Origin: Streptomyces ambofaciens ATCC 23877
GTDB lineage: Bacteria; Actinomycetota; Actinomycetes; Streptomycetales; Streptomycetaceae
Direction of reading: 5' to 3'
Length of the DNA stretch: 64,000 bases
Assembly (NCBI RefSeq): GCF_001267885.1
Contig: NZ_CP012382.1
Span: 4,885,001-4,949,000, forward strand
Shown: one piece after another, positions 3,386 through 38,110 of the stretch
Layout of the letters: the number at the start of each line of letters is the position of its first letter
How positions within the stretch are numbered: the first letter of the stretch is position 1
Program-made: the position numbers and the translations under genes
Notes under the pieces: model-generated
Databases searched by the model: none
Told to the model about the DNA's origin: nothing
Seen by the model: only the letters and a program-made list of their open reading frames with translations

Positions 3386-5029
3386 TCACCCCGCCCTCAG
3401 TTCCTCGGCCATCGCCGCGCGCAGCCGCAACGTCGTGACGAGCCGCTGGAAGGCCTCCGCCCAGTAGCCCCCGGCTCCCGGCGCCGCGTCCTCCGACTCG
3501 TCGGGTATCGCCAGCAGACCGTCGAGACGGCCCGCCTCCGAGGGGTCGAGGCAGCGTTCGGCCAGACCCATGACGCCGCTGAAGCTCCACGGATAACTCC
3601 CCGCGTCGCGGGCGATGTCGAGCGCGTCGACCACAGCACGTCCCAGCGGCGGTGCCCACGGCACCGTGCACATGCCGAGCAACTGGAACGCCTCCGACAG
3701 TCCGTGGGTCGCGATGAACCCGGCGACCCACGTGGCCCGTTCGTCCGGCCCCAGCGTGCCGAGCAGTTTCGCCCGCTCGGCCAGCGAGACCGCGCCCGGC
3801 CCTCCGGCCTCGGGTGCCGTGGGCGCGCCGAGCAGGGCCCTCGCCCACGTGCCGTCGCGCTGCCGCACCGCGGCCCGGCACCACGCCGCGTGCAGATCGC
3901 CCTGCCAGTCGTCCGTCACCGGAAGAGCGACGATCTCCTCGGCGGAACGGCCACCGAAACGGGAGGTCCAGGCAGCGAGCGGGGCCGCCTCCACCAACTG
4001 ACCCAGCCACCACGACCGCGCGCCCCGGCCCGAGGGCGGTCTGGCCACGACGCCGTCCCGCTCCATGCCCGGGTCGCACTCGTGCGGCGCCTCGACCGCG
4101 ATCGCCGGTGGCTCCAGGGTTCGGTCGAGGAAGACGCACGTCACGGCACGCGCCGCCATCCGCGCGGCCAGCGCCGAGTCCGGCAGCGCCGACAGCAGTT
4201 CCGCCGCCGTCGCCCGTACGTTGCGGCTGCGGTCGGCCAGCGCCGCCTCGAGGAACGGCTCGTCCGCCGGTTCCAGCCCCGACCGCAGTGAGTCGAGGAA
4301 CATCAGCCGGTCCTCGGCCCGTTCCGTCGGCCAGGTGGAGGCCAGCAGCGCTCGGGCACCGGCGGGGTCGCGGGAGCGCAGGGCCGCCAGCAGAGCGACC
4401 CGCTCGGCGAACAGACCCTCCTCCCAGAGCCGCCGCACCTGCTCCGCCGCCTCGGGGCCGGGCAGGGCCGTGCCTCCGCCCGGCGTCGCGCGCAGGGCGA
4501 ACCGCCAGTCCGGATTCAACCGGGCCAGCCACAGCCCGCGGGGCCCCGCGAACGCCAGCGCCGCCGGACGCAGATCCGTGCGCCCCCGGGCCGCGTCCAG
4601 CAGGGCCGGGAGCGCCTCGGGGGGTGGCGCGAAGCCGTGGGCGTTCGCCGCCGCCAGCCACTGGGGGAGCAGCTCCATGAGGTCGGGCGCGGTGCCCCGG
4701 CGGCCGCCCCCCGCCGTGCCGGGTCGGTCGGTGAGCAGCGTCGTGAGCCGTCGGGCGGCCGCGGCCGGGAGCGGCGGGCGGCGGTCCTCGGGAGCCGGTT
4801 CTGGGCGCCGGCCCGCGGGCGCGGGGCGCAGTCCGGCGCGCCGGCGAACGGTCTCCGCGGCAGCCGCGTCCAGCAGTGCCGTCGGTGCGTGTGCACCGGG
4901 CGCGCAGCCCGGAGGGGTGCGTCGGTCCGTACCGAGCAGCGCGGCCGTGACCAGTTCCTCCCAGGCGCCGGGCGGTGCGGTGACGGGGGTGGGCACGCGG
5001 GCGTCGGTGGGCGTGGGTGTCCTGGTCAT
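3386..5029 (-). CDS. DUF5691 family protein (HEAT-like), part of the MoxR/VWA system
   Basis: A 547-residue Ala/Leu/Arg-rich, helix-rich protein that I recognise as DUF5691. No catalytic motif is visible. Regularly spaced helical segments (for example RNVRATAAELLSALPDSALA near 285-305) suggest a HEAT/ARM-like scaffold. It is the second gene of the minus-strand arm, 55 bp downstream of the SWIM gene, and probably shares its transcript. In actinobacteria this family occurs with MoxR, VWA, DUF5682 and SWIM genes, as here, which suggests a shared complex. Its biochemical role is unknown. The ATG at 5029 has AAGGGA about seven bases upstream. Confidence 0.8.
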   Translation of the reverse strand: MTRTPTPTDARVPTPVTAPPGAWEELVTAALLGTDRRTPPGCAPGAHAPTALLDAAAAETVRRRAGLRPAPAGRRPEPAPEDRRPPLPAAAARRLTTLLTDRPGTAGGGRRGTAPDLMELLPQWLAAANAHGFAPPPEALPALLDAARGRTDLRPAALAFAGPRGLWLARLNPDWRFALRATPGGGTALPGPEAAEQVRRLWEEGLFAERVALLAALRSRDPAGARALLASTWPTERAEDRLMFLDSLRSGLEPADEPFLEAALADRSRNVRATAAELLSALPDSALAARMAARAVTCVFLDRTLEPPAIAVEAPHECDPGMERDGVVARPPSGRGARSWWLGQLVEAAPLAAWTSRFGGRSAEEIVALPVTDDWQGDLHAAWCRAAVRQRDGTWARALLGAPTAPEAGGPGAVSLAERAKLLGTLGPDERATWVAGFIATHGLSEAFQLLGMCTVPWAPPLGRAVVDALDIARDAGSYPWSFSGVMGLAERCLDPSEAGRLDGLLAIPDESEDAAPGAGGYWAEAFQRLVTTLRLRAAMAEELRAG

Positions 5030-5084: not shown

Positions 5085-6440
5085 TCAGTACAGCGGCACC
5101 GCCGGGCCCGGTCCGGCCGGCCAGGCCGTCAGCGGAGTGAAGCCCCGGTGGCCGAACTCCCCGAAGACCCGCACGGGCGCACCGCCCGACAGGGCGACCA
5201 GGCGCCACAGGCCCGGACGGCTCCCGGCCGGCGCCGACAGCGGCAGTGCCGTGTCCCCTTCGGCGTCCGCCAGTTGCCAGTGGTCTCCGTCCGGCACCGG
5301 GACGACCCGCGCCAGGGTCACCGGCACCGCGTCCAGCCACGGGTCCGCGCGGAGGGCCTCGCCGTACCGCACCGCCGCTCGGGACGTCGTCACTCCCTCC
5401 GGGCGTATGTCCGCGGGCGCGGGCGGGGTGAACCGCTCGCCCAGGGCGACCCGCTGCCGCCCGGCGCCCGGATACGCCGACACCTCGGCCTCGAAGGCCG
5501 ACCCGACGGGCAGCGCCAGCTCCGGTGCCCTGCCCGCGGCACCGTAGGACAGGAGCAGCGCGGTGCGCGCCGTGTCCGCGCCGTACAACCAGATGCGACG
5601 CGTCGTCAGCCGACTGTCCGCGGTGTCGTGCTGGGCGAGGACCAGCCACCGGTCCCGCACCGCAGGGCCGTCCGCGGACGCGGAGAGGCCGACGCGCGAA
5701 CGGACCGTGGCGGCCAGGTCGTCCGGCAGCCGGTCCCGGCGAAGCCAGCCCTGGTCGAGCAGGTGGAGGAGAGCGCACTCCTCCAGCAGCCGTACCGGCC
5801 AGCCGGCGCCGGACGACGGTATGCCCCCCAGGTCCCGCACCCGCGAGGCCAGCCCCGACGCCTGGGCGTCGACCATGCGGGCCGCCGTCTCCTCCCACAG
5901 CTCGTACCCCGACTGCTCGGCGCCGGCCAGGCCGCCGCGCAGCAGGTCCGCCAGTCGCTGCTCCAGCTCCGTCGCGCCCGCCGTGATCCGCTCGGCACGC
6001 TGCTCCGCCCGGCGCCGTGCGGCCCGCTGATCACCGGGCCCGGCCGTGACCCCGGCCGAGCTCGCCGTCCTCTTCCCCGCCACGCGCCCGCGCCGTCCCG
6101 CGATCCACCGTTCCACCCAGTCCGGCGCCTCGGCCACCGGCACCGCGTCACCCCCGCCCGCCCAGAGCAGCAGCAGCCCGATCGCGTGCTTGCACGGGAA
6201 CTCGTGGCTCGGGCAGCCGCACTCGTACGCGGGCCCGGACACCCCCACGACGTCCACGACCGTCCGATACGGCCTGCCGCCGCTCCCCTCGCACAGCCCC
6301 CACACCACCCCGTCCCCGGAACTTCCCGCCGCCGACCACGTCGCGGCCACGCCGAGTCTGCTCCCCGCTTCACGTGACGCGGCGTCAGGCGCCAGTGCCA
6401 GCACCTGGTCCGCGGTCCAGCGCACCCCCTGCTGAGTCAT
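5085..6440 (-). CDS. SWIM zinc-finger protein, part of the MoxR/VWA system
   Basis: A 451-residue protein with a SWIM zinc ligand set, C74-x-C76...C83-x-H85 (in ECGCPSHEFPCKHAIG). SWIM domains bind DNA or protein and often occur in chromatin or DNA-repair proteins. The remainder is alpha-helical and has no motif I recognise. I start at the ATG at 6440 rather than ten codons upstream. A perfect PafBC-type promoter (TTGTCAGTG-N8-TACCTT) ends at 6448, so transcription should begin almost on this A, giving a leaderless mRNA; there is no ribosome site. It is the first gene of the minus arm, ahead of DUF5691, and divergent from the MoxR operon. Confidence 0.85.
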   Translation of the reverse strand: MTQQGVRWTADQVLALAPDAASREAGSRLGVAATWSAAGSSGDGVVWGLCEGSGGRPYRTVVDVVGVSGPAYECGCPSHEFPCKHAIGLLLLWAGGGDAVPVAEAPDWVERWIAGRRGRVAGKRTASSAGVTAGPGDQRAARRRAEQRAERITAGATELEQRLADLLRGGLAGAEQSGYELWEETAARMVDAQASGLASRVRDLGGIPSSGAGWPVRLLEECALLHLLDQGWLRRDRLPDDLAATVRSRVGLSASADGPAVRDRWLVLAQHDTADSRLTTRRIWLYGADTARTALLLSYGAAGRAPELALPVGSAFEAEVSAYPGAGRQRVALGERFTPPAPADIRPEGVTTSRAAVRYGEALRADPWLDAVPVTLARVVPVPDGDHWQLADAEGDTALPLSAPAGSRPGLWRLVALSGGAPVRVFGEFGHRGFTPLTAWPAGPGPAVPLY

Positions 6441-6447
6441 GTCATCG

Positions 6448-6470
6448 AAGGTAGATCCCGCCACTGACAA
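6448..6470 (-). promoter_or_regulatory. PafBC/RecA-NDp-type DNA-damage promoter for the SWIM-DUF5691 arm
   Basis: On the minus strand TTGTCAGTG (6470-6462) is followed by exactly eight bases and TACCTT (6453-6448). This is a full match to the actinobacterial damage promoter tTGTCRGTG-N8-TAnnnT, recognised in mycobacteria by the PafBC activator and known at Streptomyces recA. The -10 lies about seven bases before the SWIM start codon, predicting a leaderless transcript. Confidence 0.75.
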
Positions 6471-6506
6471 TCGGTCGTGAGAGAGCGTCTTCGCAGGTCA
6501 GGGCGA

Positions 6507-6529
6507 TTGTCAGTGGCGTGGTGCACCGT
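6507..6529 (+). promoter_or_regulatory. PafBC-type DNA-damage promoter for the MoxR-DUF5682-VWA arm
   Basis: TTGTCAGTG (6507-6515), eight bases, then CACCGT (6524-6529). This matches the damage promoter except for C in place of T at the first -10 base. With its minus-strand partner it forms a perfect 13-bp inverted repeat (6461-6473 against 6504-6516). A start near 6536 would leave a ~36-base leader containing the GGAGGGGG site of the MoxR gene. Confidence 0.6.
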
Positions 6530-6571
6530 GGATGCGAGATCGAACCGGCCGAGCTGGAGGGGGACCAAGCC

Positions 6572-7705
6572 ATGCCTGTGTCCGCAGAACCGACGTCCGT
6601 CGACCCGGGCCGGAACGGGTCCGCCGCGGAGGCGTTGCGGCCGCACGCCGAGGAAGCGTTCGCGGCCGAACTCGCCGCGCTGGCCGCGCGGGACGACCGT
6701 CCGCGTCCGGCCCGCTGGAAGCTGTCGCCGTGGGCCGTCGCCACCTACCTGCTCGGCGGCACCCTGCCCGACGGCACCGTGATCACACCGAAGTACGTGG
6801 GCCCGCGCCGCATCGTCGAGGTCGCCGTCACCACGCTCGCCACCGACCGTGCCCTGCTCCTGCTCGGCGTGCCCGGGACGGCGAAGACCTGGGTGTCCGA
6901 ACACCTCGCCGCGGCCGTCAGCGGTGATTCGACCCTGCTGGTGCAGGGCACGGCCGGCACACCCGAGGAAGCCATCCGCTACGGCTGGAACTACGCGCGG
7001 CTGCTCGCCCACGGTCCGAGCCGCGACGCCCTCGTGCCCAGCCCGGTGATGCGTGCCATGGCCGAGGGAAGGACCGCCCGCGTGGAGGAACTGACCCGAA
7101 TCCCGGCCGACGTGCAGGACACGCTCATCACGATCCTGTCGGAGAAGACCCTGCCGATACCGGAGCTGGGCCAGGAGGTGCAGGCGGTCCGCGGCTTCAA
7201 CCTCATCGCCACCGCCAACGACCGTGACCGCGGGGTCAACGAACTCTCCAGCGCCCTGCGCCGTCGCTTCAACACCGTGGTGCTGCCGCTGCCGGAGACC
7301 GCCGAGGCGGAGGTCGAGATCGTCGCACGCCGCGTCGACCAGATCGGCCGCTCCCTCGATCTGCCCTCGGCGCCCGACGGCCTCGACGAGATCCGCCGCG
7401 TGGTCACCGTCTTCCGCGAGTTGCGCGACGGACTGACGGACGACGGACGCACGAAGGTGAAGTCGCCCAGCGGCACGCTGTCCCCGGCCGAGGCGATCTC
7501 CGTCGTCACCAACGGCCTCGCCCTGGCCGCCCACTTCGGTGACGGGGTGCTGCGGCCCGGCGACGTCGCCGCGGGCATCCTCGGCGCCGTCGTCCGCGAC
7601 CCGGCCGCCGACCGCGTCGTCTGGCAGGAGTACCTGGAGACGGTCGTCCGCGAGCGCGACGGCTGGAAGGACTTCTACCGGGCGTGCCGGGAGGTGACCG
7701 GGTGA
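6572..7705 (+). CDS. MoxR-family AAA+ ATPase
   Basis: A 377-residue MoxR-type AAA+ ATPase. Walker A is GVPGTAKT at ~99-106. The Walker B region reads VEEL near 171-174, with Glu-Glu rather than the usual Asp-Glu. Sensor 1 is ATAND at ~213-217, and an RRRF arginine-finger region lies at ~230. MoxR ATPases act as chaperones that remodel or insert cofactors into partners, usually paired with VWA proteins; the VWA gene is third in this operon. The ATG at 6572 has GGAGGGGG eight bases upstream. The in-frame ATG at 6518 overlaps the promoter and lies before the expected transcript start, so I reject it. Confidence 0.92.
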   Translation: MPVSAEPTSVDPGRNGSAAEALRPHAEEAFAAELAALAARDDRPRPARWKLSPWAVATYLLGGTLPDGTVITPKYVGPRRIVEVAVTTLATDRALLLLGVPGTAKTWVSEHLAAAVSGDSTLLVQGTAGTPEEAIRYGWNYARLLAHGPSRDALVPSPVMRAMAEGRTARVEELTRIPADVQDTLITILSEKTLPIPELGQEVQAVRGFNLIATANDRDRGVNELSSALRRRFNTVVLPLPETAEAEVEIVARRVDQIGRSLDLPSAPDGLDEIRRVVTVFRELRDGLTDDGRTKVKSPSGTLSPAEAISVVTNGLALAAHFGDGVLRPGDVAAGILGAVVRDPAADRVVWQEYLETVVRERDGWKDFYRACREVTG

Positions 7706-7807
7706 CGGGGAAGCGGACGCGGGCCCGGTTCCGGAGGGGTGTTCCGGAGCTCGGCGCGACGGGGACCACGGAGGGCTCGCCCTGGTCCCGGAGGGGAGGT
7801 GGGCGGC

Positions 7808-10312
7808 GTGACGGGTGCTGACAGGACCGGAAGCGGCGGGCCGCGGGGTGGTGCCGGGACCGCCCGGGCCGGCGGTGAAGCGCTGCTCCTCGGCGTACGC
7901 CACCACGGGCCGGGGTCGGCGCGGGCGGTCCGGGCGGCGCTGGAGCAGGCCCGGCCCGGAGTCGTGCTGATCGAGGGGCCACCGGAGGCCGACCCCTTGG
8001 TCCCGTTGGCCGCCGACGAGGACATGCGCCCACCGGTCGCGCTCCTCGCCCACGCCGTGGACGAGCCCGGCCGCTCGGCCTTCTGGCCCCTGGCCGAGTT
8101 CTCCCCCGAGTGGGTGGCCCTCCGCTGGGCCCTGGAGCACGACGTCCCCGCCCGCTTCATCGACCTCCCGGCCACCCACACGCTGGCCCGGCAGGAACCG
8201 GAGGACGCCCCGCCCGGGACGGACCGGACGGGTCAGGGGGAGCCCGGCACGGACAAGGGGGCCGAGACCTCCGCGGCCCTCCCCGATGTCCGGGTCGATC
8301 CGCTCGCCGCCCTCGCCGAGGCCGCCGGCCATGACGACCCGGAGCGCTGGTGGGAGGACGTGGTCGAGCACCGGGGCGCGGAGCACGGGGACGCGCTGGC
8401 ACCGTTCAGGGCGCTGGAGGAGGCCATGGGGGCGCTGCGGGAGACGGAGGAGGGCGGCGGGCGTGACCGGGACCTCGTCCGGGAGGCCTTCATGCGGTTG
8501 CAGGTCAGGGCCGCGCAGCGGGAGTCCACCCAGCAGGTCGCCGTGGTCTGCGGGGCCTGGCACGTGCCCGCGCTCCGGCGCAGGGTCACCGTCGCCGCCG
8601 ACCGCGCACTGCTCAAGGGGTTGCCCCGGACCAAGGTCGACATGACCTGGGTGCCCTGGACCCACCGCAGGCTGTCCCGGTCCAGCGGGTACGGGGCGGG
8701 GATCGAGTCACCGGGCTGGTACGGGCATCTGTTCGGCGCGCCGGACCGGCCGGTCGAGCGCTGGCTGACCAGGGTGGCCGGGTTGCTGCGGGAGGAGGAC
8801 CGGAGCGTCTCCTCGGCACACGTCATCGAGGCGGTGCGGCTGGCCGAGACCCTCGCGGTGATGCGCGGCCGTCCGCTGCCCGGGCTGAGCGAGACGACGG
8901 ACGCCGTGCGGGCGGTGATGTGCGAGGGCTCGGACGTACCGCTGGCGCTGGTGCACGACCGGCTGGTCGTGGGGGACGTGCTGGGAGAGGTGCCCGCCGG
9001 GGCGCCCGCGGTGCCCCTGCAGCGGGACCTGGACCGGACCCAGCGGCGGTTGCGGCTCAAGCCGGAGGCGTCGGAGCGGGAGCTGGAGCTCGACCTGCGC
9101 AAGGAGACCGACGCGGGGCGCAGCCGACTCCTGCACCGGCTGCGGCTGCTCGGTGTCGGCTGGGGCGAGCCGGCCGCCGCACGGGGGAGCACGGGCACGT
9201 TCCGGGAGACGTGGCGGCTGCGGTGGGAGCCGGAGCTGTCGGTGCGGGTCGCCGAAGCCGGGGTGTGGGGCACGACCGTGCTCGGCGCGGCGACCGCCAG
9301 GGCGCAGGCGGACGCCGTCACCGCGCAGGGTCTCGCCGATGTCACCGCCCTCGCCGAGCGCTGCCTGCTGGCCGAACTGCCGGACGCGCTGTCACCGGTG
9401 ATGCGGATCCTCGCGGACCGTGCGGCACTCGACATGGACGTCGGCCACCTCGCCCAGGCGCTGCCGGCCCTCGTCCGCTCACTGCGCTACGGCGACGTGC
9501 GCGGCACCGACACCGGAGCGCTGGCCGAGGTCGCCGCGGGTCTCGCCGAGCGGGTCTTCGTGGGCCTGCCCCCCGCCTGCGCCGGGCTGGACGCCGACGC
9601 GGCTCAGGAGATGCGCCGGCACGTGGACGCCGTGCACGGAGCGGTGGGACTGCTCGGTGACGCCCCCGCGCCGGGCCACGGCGCCCTGAGGTCCCGTTGG
9701 CAGGCCGTCCTGCGGACCCTCTCCGCGCGGGGCGGCGTGTCCGGGGTGATCCGGGGGCGGGCCGTGCGGCTCCTGCTGGACGACGGCGCGCTCGTGCCGC
9801 AGGAGGCTGCCCGGCTCATGGGGCAGGTGCTGTCCCGCGGGACGCCGCCGGCGGACGCGGCCGCCTGGATCGAGGGCTTCCTCGGCGGCGGCTCGGGAGG
9901 CGGCATGCTCCTCCTGCACGACGAGCGGCTGCTCGCACTGGTCGACGCCTGGCTGACCGGCGTACCGGCGGAGGCGTTCACGGACGTACTGCCGTTGCTG
10001 CGGCGCACCTTCTCGGCCTACGAGCCGGGAGTCCGCCGCAGCCTCGGCGAGTTGGTCCGGCGCGGGCCGGCGTCGCGGGGGAGCGTGACGACGACCGGTT
10101 CCGGCATACCCGGTTTCGGGGCCGGGCTCGCCACCGGACGTGCCGAAGCCGTGCTGCCGGTGGTCCGGCTGCTGCTGGGGCTGGACGAGGCGGAGGCGAC
10201 GGGCGAGCGAACCGGAACCCCGGACGCCGGCCCTGGCCCTGGCCATGACGCCGATACGGGCGGCGGGTTGCCGGGTGGCGACGACAACGACCTCGTGGGG
10301 GTGGACGCATGA
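7808..10312 (+). CDS. DUF5682 family protein, part of the MoxR/VWA system
   Basis: An 834-residue protein I recognise as DUF5682. Near the N-terminus it has LLLGVRHHGPGSARAV and VVLIEGPPEADP, and near residue 250 VVCGAWHVPALRRRV. Paired G-x-x-H elements with an acidic strand resemble the TIKI/TraB/EreA-like hydrolase fold, so a metal-dependent hydrolase role is possible; this is inference. The long C-terminal half is helical. The GTG at 7808 has GGGGAGGT about seven bases upstream; an ATG 23 codons earlier lacks a site. It overlaps the VWA gene by four bases (ATGA), indicating translational coupling. Confidence 0.82.
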   Translation: MTGADRTGSGGPRGGAGTARAGGEALLLGVRHHGPGSARAVRAALEQARPGVVLIEGPPEADPLVPLAADEDMRPPVALLAHAVDEPGRSAFWPLAEFSPEWVALRWALEHDVPARFIDLPATHTLARQEPEDAPPGTDRTGQGEPGTDKGAETSAALPDVRVDPLAALAEAAGHDDPERWWEDVVEHRGAEHGDALAPFRALEEAMGALRETEEGGGRDRDLVREAFMRLQVRAAQRESTQQVAVVCGAWHVPALRRRVTVAADRALLKGLPRTKVDMTWVPWTHRRLSRSSGYGAGIESPGWYGHLFGAPDRPVERWLTRVAGLLREEDRSVSSAHVIEAVRLAETLAVMRGRPLPGLSETTDAVRAVMCEGSDVPLALVHDRLVVGDVLGEVPAGAPAVPLQRDLDRTQRRLRLKPEASERELELDLRKETDAGRSRLLHRLRLLGVGWGEPAAARGSTGTFRETWRLRWEPELSVRVAEAGVWGTTVLGAATARAQADAVTAQGLADVTALAERCLLAELPDALSPVMRILADRAALDMDVGHLAQALPALVRSLRYGDVRGTDTGALAEVAAGLAERVFVGLPPACAGLDADAAQEMRRHVDAVHGAVGLLGDAPAPGHGALRSRWQAVLRTLSARGGVSGVIRGRAVRLLLDDGALVPQEAARLMGQVLSRGTPPADAAAWIEGFLGGGSGGGMLLLHDERLLALVDAWLTGVPAEAFTDVLPLLRRTFSAYEPGVRRSLGELVRRGPASRGSVTTTGSGIPGFGAGLATGRAEAVLPVVRLLLGLDEAEATGERTGTPDAGPGPGHDADTGGGLPGGDDNDLVGVDA

Positions 10313-11478
10313 CGACCGAGCCGGTGGATGCCGACCCGGCGCAGGAACGACTGCGGCGGTGGCGGCTGGTGCTCGGGGGCGACCCGGCCGACGGCACCGG
10401 CCGCACGCTCTCCGGGCGGGACGCCGCGATGGACGGCGCGCTCGCCGCGCTCTACGGGAAGGAGAGCAGGTCACGTCCCGGTCGGGACCGGTCGGCGGGT
10501 CTCGGGGCCTCCGCGCCGGCCGTGGCGCGCTGGCTGGGGGACATCCGCACCTACTTCCCCTCCTCCGTCGTGCAGGTGATGCAGCGGGACGCGATCGACC
10601 GTCTCGGTCTCGCCACCCTCCTGCTGGAGCCGGAGATGCTCGAGGCCGTGGAGGCCGACGTACACCTCGTCGGCACGCTGCTGTCCCTCCACAAAGCGAT
10701 GCCGGAGACGACGAGGGAGACGGCGCGGGCCGTCGTCCGCAAGGTGGTCGCAGACCTGGAGAAGCGGCTCGCCACACGCACCCGGGCCACGCTCACCGGC
10801 GCCCTCGACCGCAGTGCCCGCGTCACCCGGCCCCGCCACCACGACATCGACTGGAACCGGACGATCGCGGCCAACCTCAAGCACTACCTGCCCGAGCACC
10901 GGACGATCGTGCCGGAGCGGCTCATCGGTCACGGGCGGGCGTCCCGCTCCGTGAAGAAGGAGGTCGTCCTCTGCGTCGACCAGTCGGGGTCGATGGCGGC
11001 GTCGGTGGTGTACGCGTCCGTGTTCGGAGCGGTGCTGGCGTCCATGCGGTCGATCGACACCCGGCTCGTCGTCTTCGACACGGCCGTCGTCGACCTCACC
11101 GATCAGCTCGACGACCCGGTCGACGTCCTGTTCGGCACGCGACTCGGCGGCGGCACGGACATCAACCGCGCGCTGGCGTACTGCCAGTCGCGGATCACCC
11201 GGCCCTCGAAGACGGTGGTCGTGCTGATCAGCGATCTGTACGAGGGGGGCATACGCCACGAGATGCTCAAGCGGGTCGCGGCGATGAAGGCGGCGGGGGT
11301 GGGGTTCGTGACGCTGCTGGCGCTGTCCGACGAGGGAGCGCCCGCCTACGACCGGGAGCACGCGGCGGCGCTCGCCGCTCTGGGCACGCCCGCCTTCGCC
11401 TGCACGCCCGATCTGTTTCCGGAGGTGATGGCGGCGGCGATCGAGAGGCGGCCGTTGCCGATGCCGGACGCCGGGTGA
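10309..11478 (+). CDS. VWA (von Willebrand factor A) domain protein, MoxR partner
   Basis: A 389-residue protein whose C-terminal half is a VWA domain. The metal-ion-dependent adhesion site is intact: DQSGS at ~224-228 (DxSxS), the GGGTD threonine around 284-288 and the ISDLYEG aspartate near 308. The N-terminal ~200 residues are helical, as in MoxR-associated VWA proteins that recruit substrates to the ATPase. It is the last gene of the plus arm and overlaps DUF5682 by four bases. No signal peptide is seen, so it is cytoplasmic. Confidence 0.9.
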   Translation: MTTEPVDADPAQERLRRWRLVLGGDPADGTGRTLSGRDAAMDGALAALYGKESRSRPGRDRSAGLGASAPAVARWLGDIRTYFPSSVVQVMQRDAIDRLGLATLLLEPEMLEAVEADVHLVGTLLSLHKAMPETTRETARAVVRKVVADLEKRLATRTRATLTGALDRSARVTRPRHHDIDWNRTIAANLKHYLPEHRTIVPERLIGHGRASRSVKKEVVLCVDQSGSMAASVVYASVFGAVLASMRSIDTRLVVFDTAVVDLTDQLDDPVDVLFGTRLGGGTDINRALAYCQSRITRPSKTVVVLISDLYEGGIRHEMLKRVAAMKAAGVGFVTLLALSDEGAPAYDREHAAALAALGTPAFACTPDLFPEVMAAAIERRPLPMPDAG

Positions 11479-36577: not shown

Positions 36578-38110
36578 ATGCCAGAGACCACCCACGTCTA
36601 CGACTACGTCGTCATCGGCGGCGGCACGGCGGGATCGGTGATCGCCTCCCGCCTCACCGAGAACCCGGACGTCACCGTCGCCGTCATCGAGGGCGGCCCC
36701 AGCGACGTCGGCCGCGACGACGTGCTGACCCTGCGCCGCTGGATGGGGCTGCTCGGGGGCGAGCTGGACTACGACTACCCCACCACCGAACAGCCACGCG
36801 GCAACTCGCACATCCGGCACAGCCGGGCCCGGGTGCTCGGCGGCTGCTCCTCCCACAACACCCTCATCGCCTTCAAGCCGCTGCCGTCCGACTGGGACGA
36901 GTGGGAGGCCGCGGGCGCCGAGGGCTGGGGCGCGGTGCCGATGGAGGCGTACTACGCGCGGCTGAAGAACAACATCGTCCCGGTCGACGAGAAGGACCGC
37001 AACGCCATCGCCCGCGACTTCGTGGACGCGGCGCAGAAGGCGCTGGAGGTCCCCAGGATCGAGGGCTTCAACAAGAAGCCGTTCACCGAGGGCGTCGGCT
37101 TCTTCGACCTCGCCTACCACCCCGAGAACAACAAGCGGTCGTCGGCCTCGGTGGCGTACCTGCACCCGGTGATGGACGAGCGTCACAACCTCACCCTCAT
37201 GCTGGAGACCTGGGCGTACCGGCTGGAGCTGGACGGCACCCGCGCCGAAGGCGTCCACGTCCGCACCAAGGACGGCGAGGAGCTCCTCGTCCGGGCCCGC
37301 AACGAGGTCGTGCTGTGCGCCGGCGCCGTCGACTCGCCGCGCCTGCTGCTGCACTCCGGCATCGGCCCGAAGGCCGACCTGGAGGCGCTCGGCATACCCG
37401 TGGCGCTCGACCTGCCCGGCGTCGGCGAGAACCTGCTCGACCACCCCGAGTCGGTGATCGTGTGGGAGACCCACGGCCCCATCCCGGAGAACTCCGCGAT
37501 GGACTCCGACGCCGGCCTGTTCGTGCGCCGCGACCCCGAACACGCGGGCCCCGACCTGATGTTCCACTTCTACCAGATCCCGTTCACGGACAACCCGGAG
37601 CGCCTCGGCTACGAACGCCCCGCGCACGGCGTCTCCATGACCCCGAACATCCCGAAGCCCAAGAGCCGCGGCCGCCTGTACCTCACCAGCGCCGACCCCG
37701 AGGTCAAGCCGGCCCTGGACTTCCGTTACTTCACCGACGAGGACGACCACGACGGCCGCACCCTCGTCGACGGCATCCGCATCGCCCGTGAGGTCGCCAG
37801 GTCCGAGCCGCTGGCCGGCTGGCTCAAGCGCGAGGTCTGCCCCGGCCCGGACGTCACCGGCGACGAGGAGCTGAGCGAGTACGCCCGCAAGGTCGCCCAC
37901 ACCGTCTACCACCCGGCGGGCACCTGCCGGATGGGCGCCGCCACCGACGAGCTGGCCGTCGTCGACCCCGAGCTGCGCGTGCGCGGCCTGACGGGCCTGC
38001 GCGTCGCCGACGCCTCCGTCTTCCCGACCATGCCCGCCGTGAACCCCATGATCGGCGTGCTCATGGTCGGGGAGCGCGCCGTCGAGCTGATCGGTGGTGA
38101 CAACCGATGA
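36578..38110 (+). CDS. Choline oxidase-like GMC flavoprotein
   Basis: A 510-residue GMC oxidoreductase. The FAD-binding motif [15 protein letters not shown] is at ~11-25. GGCSSHN contains His93, which aligns with the His that covalently holds FAD in Arthrobacter choline oxidase. The active-site His445 ([11 protein letters not shown]) and Asn489 (AVNPMIG) are present. This fits oxidation of choline through betaine aldehyde to glycine betaine using oxygen, more closely than E. coli-type BetA. ATG 36578 has GGAG about eight bases upstream. It overlaps the ATPase gene by four bases. Confidence 0.88.

Follow-up and report, generated by a model that had tools for sequence, protein, structure and literature searches.

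Two outward-facing PafBC-type promoters probably drive both arms of a split MoxR/VWA gene system in Streptomyces

Introduction

PafBC, a regulator activated by single-stranded DNA, associates with the complex of RNA polymerase and sigma A at promoters that carry a −26 motif (PMC11804915, available part). The closest described promoter is P1 of recA in Mycobacterium tuberculosis and M. smegmatis (RecA-NDp), in which the −26 element TTGTCRGTG is followed, 8 nt further on, by TAnnnT, a consensus that we took from the accessible part of PMC5656591. The same part lists MoxR1, MoxR2 and a von Willebrand factor protein as reduced in M. smegmatis lacking pafBC. In Streptomyces, RecA-NDp promoters have already been reported for recA and SCO6735, the latter being induced by UV (PMC5087735, in excerpt). 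For S. venezuelae, the accessible section of PMC9380542 states that, according to an initial search, the PafBC motif of M. smegmatis did not seem to be conserved.

The closest described gene set is yehL-yehM-yehP of Escherichia coli, whose products match the MoxR, DUF5682 and VWA proteins considered here (phmmer E values of 2.8e-72, 9.5e-41 and 1.9e-68, respectively). In E. coli, YehQ, named as a SWIM protein, comes after YehP, so that SWIM is last there and first here; moreover, YehQ does not match our SWIM or DUF5691 protein at E 0.01, although YehQ and SWIM carry the same name. The E. coli yehLMPQ record assigns no process to these genes.

Here, we analyse an 82-bp stretch of the Streptomyces ambofaciens ATCC 23877 chromosome (positions 6448-6529 of a 64,000-nucleotide window, the whole stretch of DNA that was studied) and conclude that it very probably consists of two separate, outward-facing PafBC-dependent (RecA-NDp) promoters, which together drive a split five-gene system. 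It resembles the mycobacterial recA P1 in its motif, but differs from it in that two copies stand back to back, the plus arm carries CAnnnT and the role of PafBC is a prediction. The promoters of S. coelicolor recA and SCO6735 belong to the same genus and bear the same element by name (PMC5087735, in excerpt); unlike the present locus, however, they serve single genes with one promoter each.

Results

The five genes lie on both sides of the 82-bp stretch, with MoxR, DUF5682 and VWA in this order on a single strand:

3386..5029, minus strand: DUF5691 protein, second gene of the minus arm, all-helical model
5085..6440, minus strand: SWIM zinc-finger protein, first gene of the minus arm (PF04434, 19.8 bits against a cut-off of 19.6)
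6572..7705, plus strand: MoxR-type AAA+ ATPase (YehL-like), first gene of the plus arm
7739..10312, plus strand: DUF5682 protein (YehM-like)
10309..11478, plus strand: VWA/CoxE-like protein (YehP-like)

Taken together, the five products presumably resemble MoxR/VWA remodelling pairs. The all-helical DUF5691 model (pLDDT 81.5) gave no PDB match at E<=0.001, with TM-scores of about 0.2 and mostly helical-repeat proteins in the top rows, and the Pfam HEAT match of this protein is weak (E 0.092). For DUF5682, the mean pLDDT is 52.4 and we make no claim about its fold; its invariant motifs GxRHHG, EGP and CGxWH are, in our estimation, reminiscent of EreA/ChaN/TraB-type enzymes, and a permissive Pfam scan returned no match of that type. 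Literature searches for DUF5682, for yehLMPQ or for a SWIM zinc finger together with MoxR and von Willebrand found nothing, nor did one joining Streptomyces, mitomycin, transcriptome and MoxR. Two other identities for the gene set were considered and rejected. As an anti-phage defence system, the five proteins gave only a marginal match between MoxR and IetA (E 0.0086) when compared with the PADLOC models, and as a MoxR-vWA-beta-propeller ternary conflict system, the bpMoxR family PF20030 scored 23.8 bits, below its cut-off of 27.

The features between the two leading genes are as follows:

6438..6440, minus strand: SWIM start codon ATG, 8 nt after the −10 element; a leaderless mRNA is predicted, its end being deduced from this spacing
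6448..6453, minus strand: −10 element TACCTT of the SWIM arm, 8 nt after the −26 element
6459..6473, no strand: left arm of the inverted repeat, perfect over 15 bp
6462..6470, minus strand: PafBC-type −26 element of the SWIM arm, TTGTCAGTG
6494..6499, plus strand: CAGGTC block upstream of the plus site, present in many orthologues as judged by eye
6504..6518, no strand: right arm of the inverted repeat, perfect over 15 bp
6507..6515, plus strand: PafBC-type −26 element of the MoxR arm, TTGTCAGTG
6524..6529, plus strand: −10 element CACCGT (CAnnnT form) of the MoxR arm, 8 nt after the −26 element
6536..6537, plus strand: predicted transcription start of the MoxR arm, placed at the distance that separates the −10 element from the start codon in leaderless sites of this class
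6556..6562, plus strand: Shine-Dalgarno-like GGAGGGG of moxR

The preliminary description of this DNA had given the inverted repeat the right coordinates and letters but too short a length, as its perfect arms extend over 15 bp and not 13 bp. Perfect 13-bp inverted repeats are not rare in themselves: the window holds 39 such 13-mer pairs with gaps of 0-60, three of which come from the repeat at 6459-6518. The GC content of the 15-bp repeat is 0.54, versus 0.77-0.92 for the other 13-mer inverted pairs of the window. Both copies carry the −26 element TTGTCRGTG exactly, and re-reading the letters bore out that the minus copy is an exact match to TTGTCRGTG-N8-TAnnnT. The leaderless SWIM mRNA proposed earlier also agrees with the spacing, since the SWIM start codon (6440) sits 8 nt past the −10 element; on the other side, the moxR ATG at 6572 leaves a predicted leader of about 35 nt. 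The window contains exactly two perfect matches to TTGTCRGTG-N8-YAnnnT, both at 6448-6529, and with one mismatch allowed it contains three; 100 shuffles gave 0.21 on average and never more than 2.

Other forms of control were searched for and rejected. For SOS/LexA control, the window has 13 matches with at most one mismatch versus 15.97 expected, and none lies between SWIM and moxR: no SOS-like box occurs in 6441-6571, the nearest being at 6587. Likewise, no match to the sigma-70 consensus of a housekeeping promoter was found in 6380-6620.

In the 8.39-Mb host genome, the strict pattern TTGTCRGTG-N8-TAnnnT occurs at 19 sites versus none in the reversed control, the 9-mer TTGTCAGTG alone at 53 versus 4, and TTGTCAGTG-N8-CAnnnT at 14 versus none. 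We scanned spacers of 0-39 over 52 TTGTCAGTG sites, which are the 53 less one identical copy. TAnnnT stood at spacer 8 in 17 of the 52 and only once in total over the other 39 spacers, while CAnnnT stood at spacer 8 in 13 and at most twice at any other spacer; the remaining −10 forms at spacer 8 were GAnnnT (5 sites) and AAnnnT (2 sites). This enrichment indicates that in this genome CAnnnT is, next to TAnnnT, a genuine −10 form of the class. Thus, the earlier remark that the plus copy departs from strict TAnnnT holds, but its verdict that this copy misses a base does not: the plus copy, though off the strict consensus, behaves like a member of the RecA-NDp / PafBC promoter class. A start codon follows the −10 element by 8 nt at 17 of the 52 sites.

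The genes behind these sites include many that act on DNA. Strict sites precede recA, uvrA, uvrB, ruvC and dnaX among others. Of 18 strict sites (the minus arm of our locus left out), 10 are followed by domains of DNA repair, recombination or replication, as are 5 of the 12 CAnnnT sites searched. About half of the leading frames have no link to repair, which counts against our interpretation. Two identical CAnnnT sites near the two ends of the large contig, at 37124 and 8266795, one of them before an Mrr-type protein, are probably terminal repeat copies.

The arrangement is conserved. As the earlier description had proposed, we aligned the orthologous loci across Streptomyces, and nearly all of those examined retain both motifs; a motif absent from orthologous loci, which that description had named as a refutation, was not what we observed. 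The first set (109 loci fetched, 108 anchored, 105 distinct) consisted of best matches and was hence biased to close relatives, so the 20 least similar full-length members listed were added. In the resulting 130 loci, which include the window and count some species twice, the minus site was present in 130 of 130, each time with its −10 element 7-9 nt ahead of a start codon, and a plus site with CAnnnT in 129, locus L261 being the one that has no plus site; the exact 9-mer was kept in 122 (minus) and 121 (plus). Within the first set, the plus −26 element was exact in 102 of 105 loci and the minus −10 element was TAnnnT in 96, the other nine carrying a full minus site further off, adjoining SWIM. 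The 20 least similar loci, in which SWIM identity is only 50-74% over the aligned part, all have the minus TAnnnT site (19 with the exact 9-mer), and 19 have the plus CAnnnT site (14 with the exact 9-mer). Among representatives below 85% identity (61 plus and 58 minus, from 125/130 anchored loci), conservation is highest in the motif columns and close to background in the flanks upstream; on the downstream side of the minus site lies the coding sequence of SWIM, which is conserved in its own right.

These loci bear on whether the inverted repeat is a single palindromic operator for a dimeric regulator instead of two promoters. A perfect 15-bp dyad is what such an operator could look like, but in 129 loci the two copies lie anywhere from 26 to 764 bp apart (median 38; above 200 bp in 12), each copy retaining its own −10 element at 8 nt. 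Nor do the other 51 genomic copies of the 9-mer have a neighbour within 3 kb; the outward-facing pair at 6448-6529 is the only one within 100 bp, versus 0.008 expected by a rough formula for 53 randomly placed sites. Because the spacing of the copies is not kept, we reject the operator and regard it as extremely improbable.

The plus arm deserves separate consideration. Its −10 element is CAnnnT in all 105 loci of the first set and TAnnnT in none, and one could suppose that the locus has a single PafBC promoter, that of the minus arm, with the plus copy being a relic of rearrangement and the moxR promoter lying elsewhere. The extra conserved bases in the plus spacer, which hint at another element, would fit such a relic as well. 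A relic should decay, yet the plus CAnnnT site persists in all but one of the 20 least similar loci, and the same form at spacer 8 is a regular one that also stands before dinB-, ligase- and polymerase III delta-prime-type genes. We therefore think it unlikely that the plus copy is a relic, and retain two promoters.

The extra bases are observed in 6519-6531, where the spacer TGGTG is shared by 92-98% of representatives and G-T-G-G, which spans the end of the −10 element, by 82-100%. As this is more than the promoter class needs, another element may overlap the plus site. By eye, many loci also show a GCAGGTC block ahead of the plus site, and others show it in inverted form ahead of the minus site; an extended pattern linked to CAGGTC gave 12 matches in the host genome versus 5 in the control, with a spacing that missed the window's own site.

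In an even draw of 150 Streptomyces genomes, a facing pair 32-62 bases apart occurred in 108 versus 2 in the control. Among the 69 genomes with listed pair positions, 58 matched moxR by eye and 11 had pairs only elsewhere. A MoxR match was present in 146 of the 150, five of them only at the level of a paralogue of about 45% identity. Away from moxR, we also noticed that a segment of about 78 bp recurs in genomes G005, G020, G056, G057, G075, G080, G092, G111 and G127; its ends are facing CACTGACA/TGTCAGTG, and its interior is common to these genomes.

The host genome encodes PafB-like and PafC-like proteins near pafA (the Pup ligase gene), which match M. smegmatis PafB of 7p5x and PafC at E 1.5e-52 and 9.6e-50, respectively. 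The PafB recognition helix has two conserved arginines (PMC6789036, available part), and the segment F-x-RMFERDK, which we take to contain both, is the same in the host PafB as in M. smegmatis. It could be argued that the promoter class is as proposed but is driven by another regulator, either ClgR, for which work cited in the accessible part of PMC5656591 describes recognition of this P1 motif in M. smegmatis, or another WYL pair, given that the host genome has five matches to the PafC HTH family. The retention of the RMFERDK segment in the host argues against this, as does the absence of P1-driven recA transcription when PafBC is missing (PMC5656591, same part). We consider another regulator very unlikely and PafBC the probable activator.

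In a phylum-wide sample, all 17 genomes with at least three strict sites have a PafC-type domain, a comparison that is confounded by relatedness and in which 190 of 246 genomes match the domain. Genomes such as G285, G346, G356 and G367 have the domain and no strict site, so a PafC-type domain alone does not predict the motif. All eight genomes of the genus Streptomyces in this sample have 10-40 strict sites versus 0-1 in the control. These counts, from other members of the genus, point in the opposite direction to the S. venezuelae statement in the accessible section of PMC9380542.

Of 49 loci from other genera of the class, 45 carry SWIM, DUF5691 and MoxR collinearly on one strand; in three of the exceptions the contig ends before SWIM, and the fourth (L235) yielded no DUF5691. 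In L192 and L193, the two loci inspected that far, DUF5682 and VWA continue on the same strand. SWIM and DUF5691 share one reading frame in 11 of the 52 loci having both (L192, L193, L212, L214, L215, L226, L227, L238, L239, L242 and L243), which suggests that the two act as one unit. We then scored promoters before SWIM in 43 usable loci, 16 of 59 having been set aside, mostly for an unaligned SWIM N-terminus. Sixteen of the 43 scored 11 or more out of 12, which none of 1456 control windows taken from these loci did, and 31 scored at least 10 versus 27 of 1456; in 27 of the 43, a score of 10 or higher coincided with a start codon lying 6-11 nt downstream of the −10 element. Outside the class, none of six usable loci reached 11 of 12 before SWIM, the best score being 10. 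Judged by these matches, a SWIM-side promoter of putative PafBC type, often apparently leaderless, is present in other actinobacterial families.

Discussion

If the mechanism described in mycobacteria applies here, DNA damage would generate single-stranded DNA that activates PafBC, which would then allow the housekeeping RNA polymerase to use promoters composed of the −26 TTGTCRGTG and a −10 element and devoid of a normal −35. The SWIM/DUF5691 and MoxR/DUF5682/VWA halves would thus be produced together, the minus promoter with its TAnnnT giving a leaderless SWIM mRNA and the plus promoter with its CAnnnT a moxR mRNA with a leader and a ribosome site. This would place the five-gene system in the DNA-damage regulon, as far as the promoter class allows us to infer. 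A gene set present in almost every Streptomyces genome examined, and with a relative in E. coli, would thereby acquire a role in the DNA-damage response that can be tested. The finding also bears on the published question of whether the PafBC motif is conserved in S. venezuelae (PMC9380542, accessible section).

The T versus C kept at the first −10 base, combined with leaderless versus leadered mRNA, suggests that the output of the two arms may be unequal. It is tempting to speculate, although we hold this to be a rather doubtful proposal, that this genus-wide imbalance (T on the SWIM side, C on the MoxR side) sets the ratio of SWIM-DUF5691 to MoxR-DUF5682-VWA subcomplexes within one remodelling machine, induced by DNA damage and having stalled repair or replication complexes as its substrates.

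From the collinear order and the SWIM-side promoter found in other genera, Streptomyces seems to carry one promoter for each split half. The simplest history would then seem to be an ancestral, collinear operon driven by PafBC from one promoter before SWIM, which was split in Streptomyces. Outward-facing pairs of strict PafBC-type sites were also seen in two other actinobacterial genomes, at about 2178/2219 of L190 and about 1998/2122 of L191; one site of the latter pair stands before a protein that, in our own reading, is SbcD-like.
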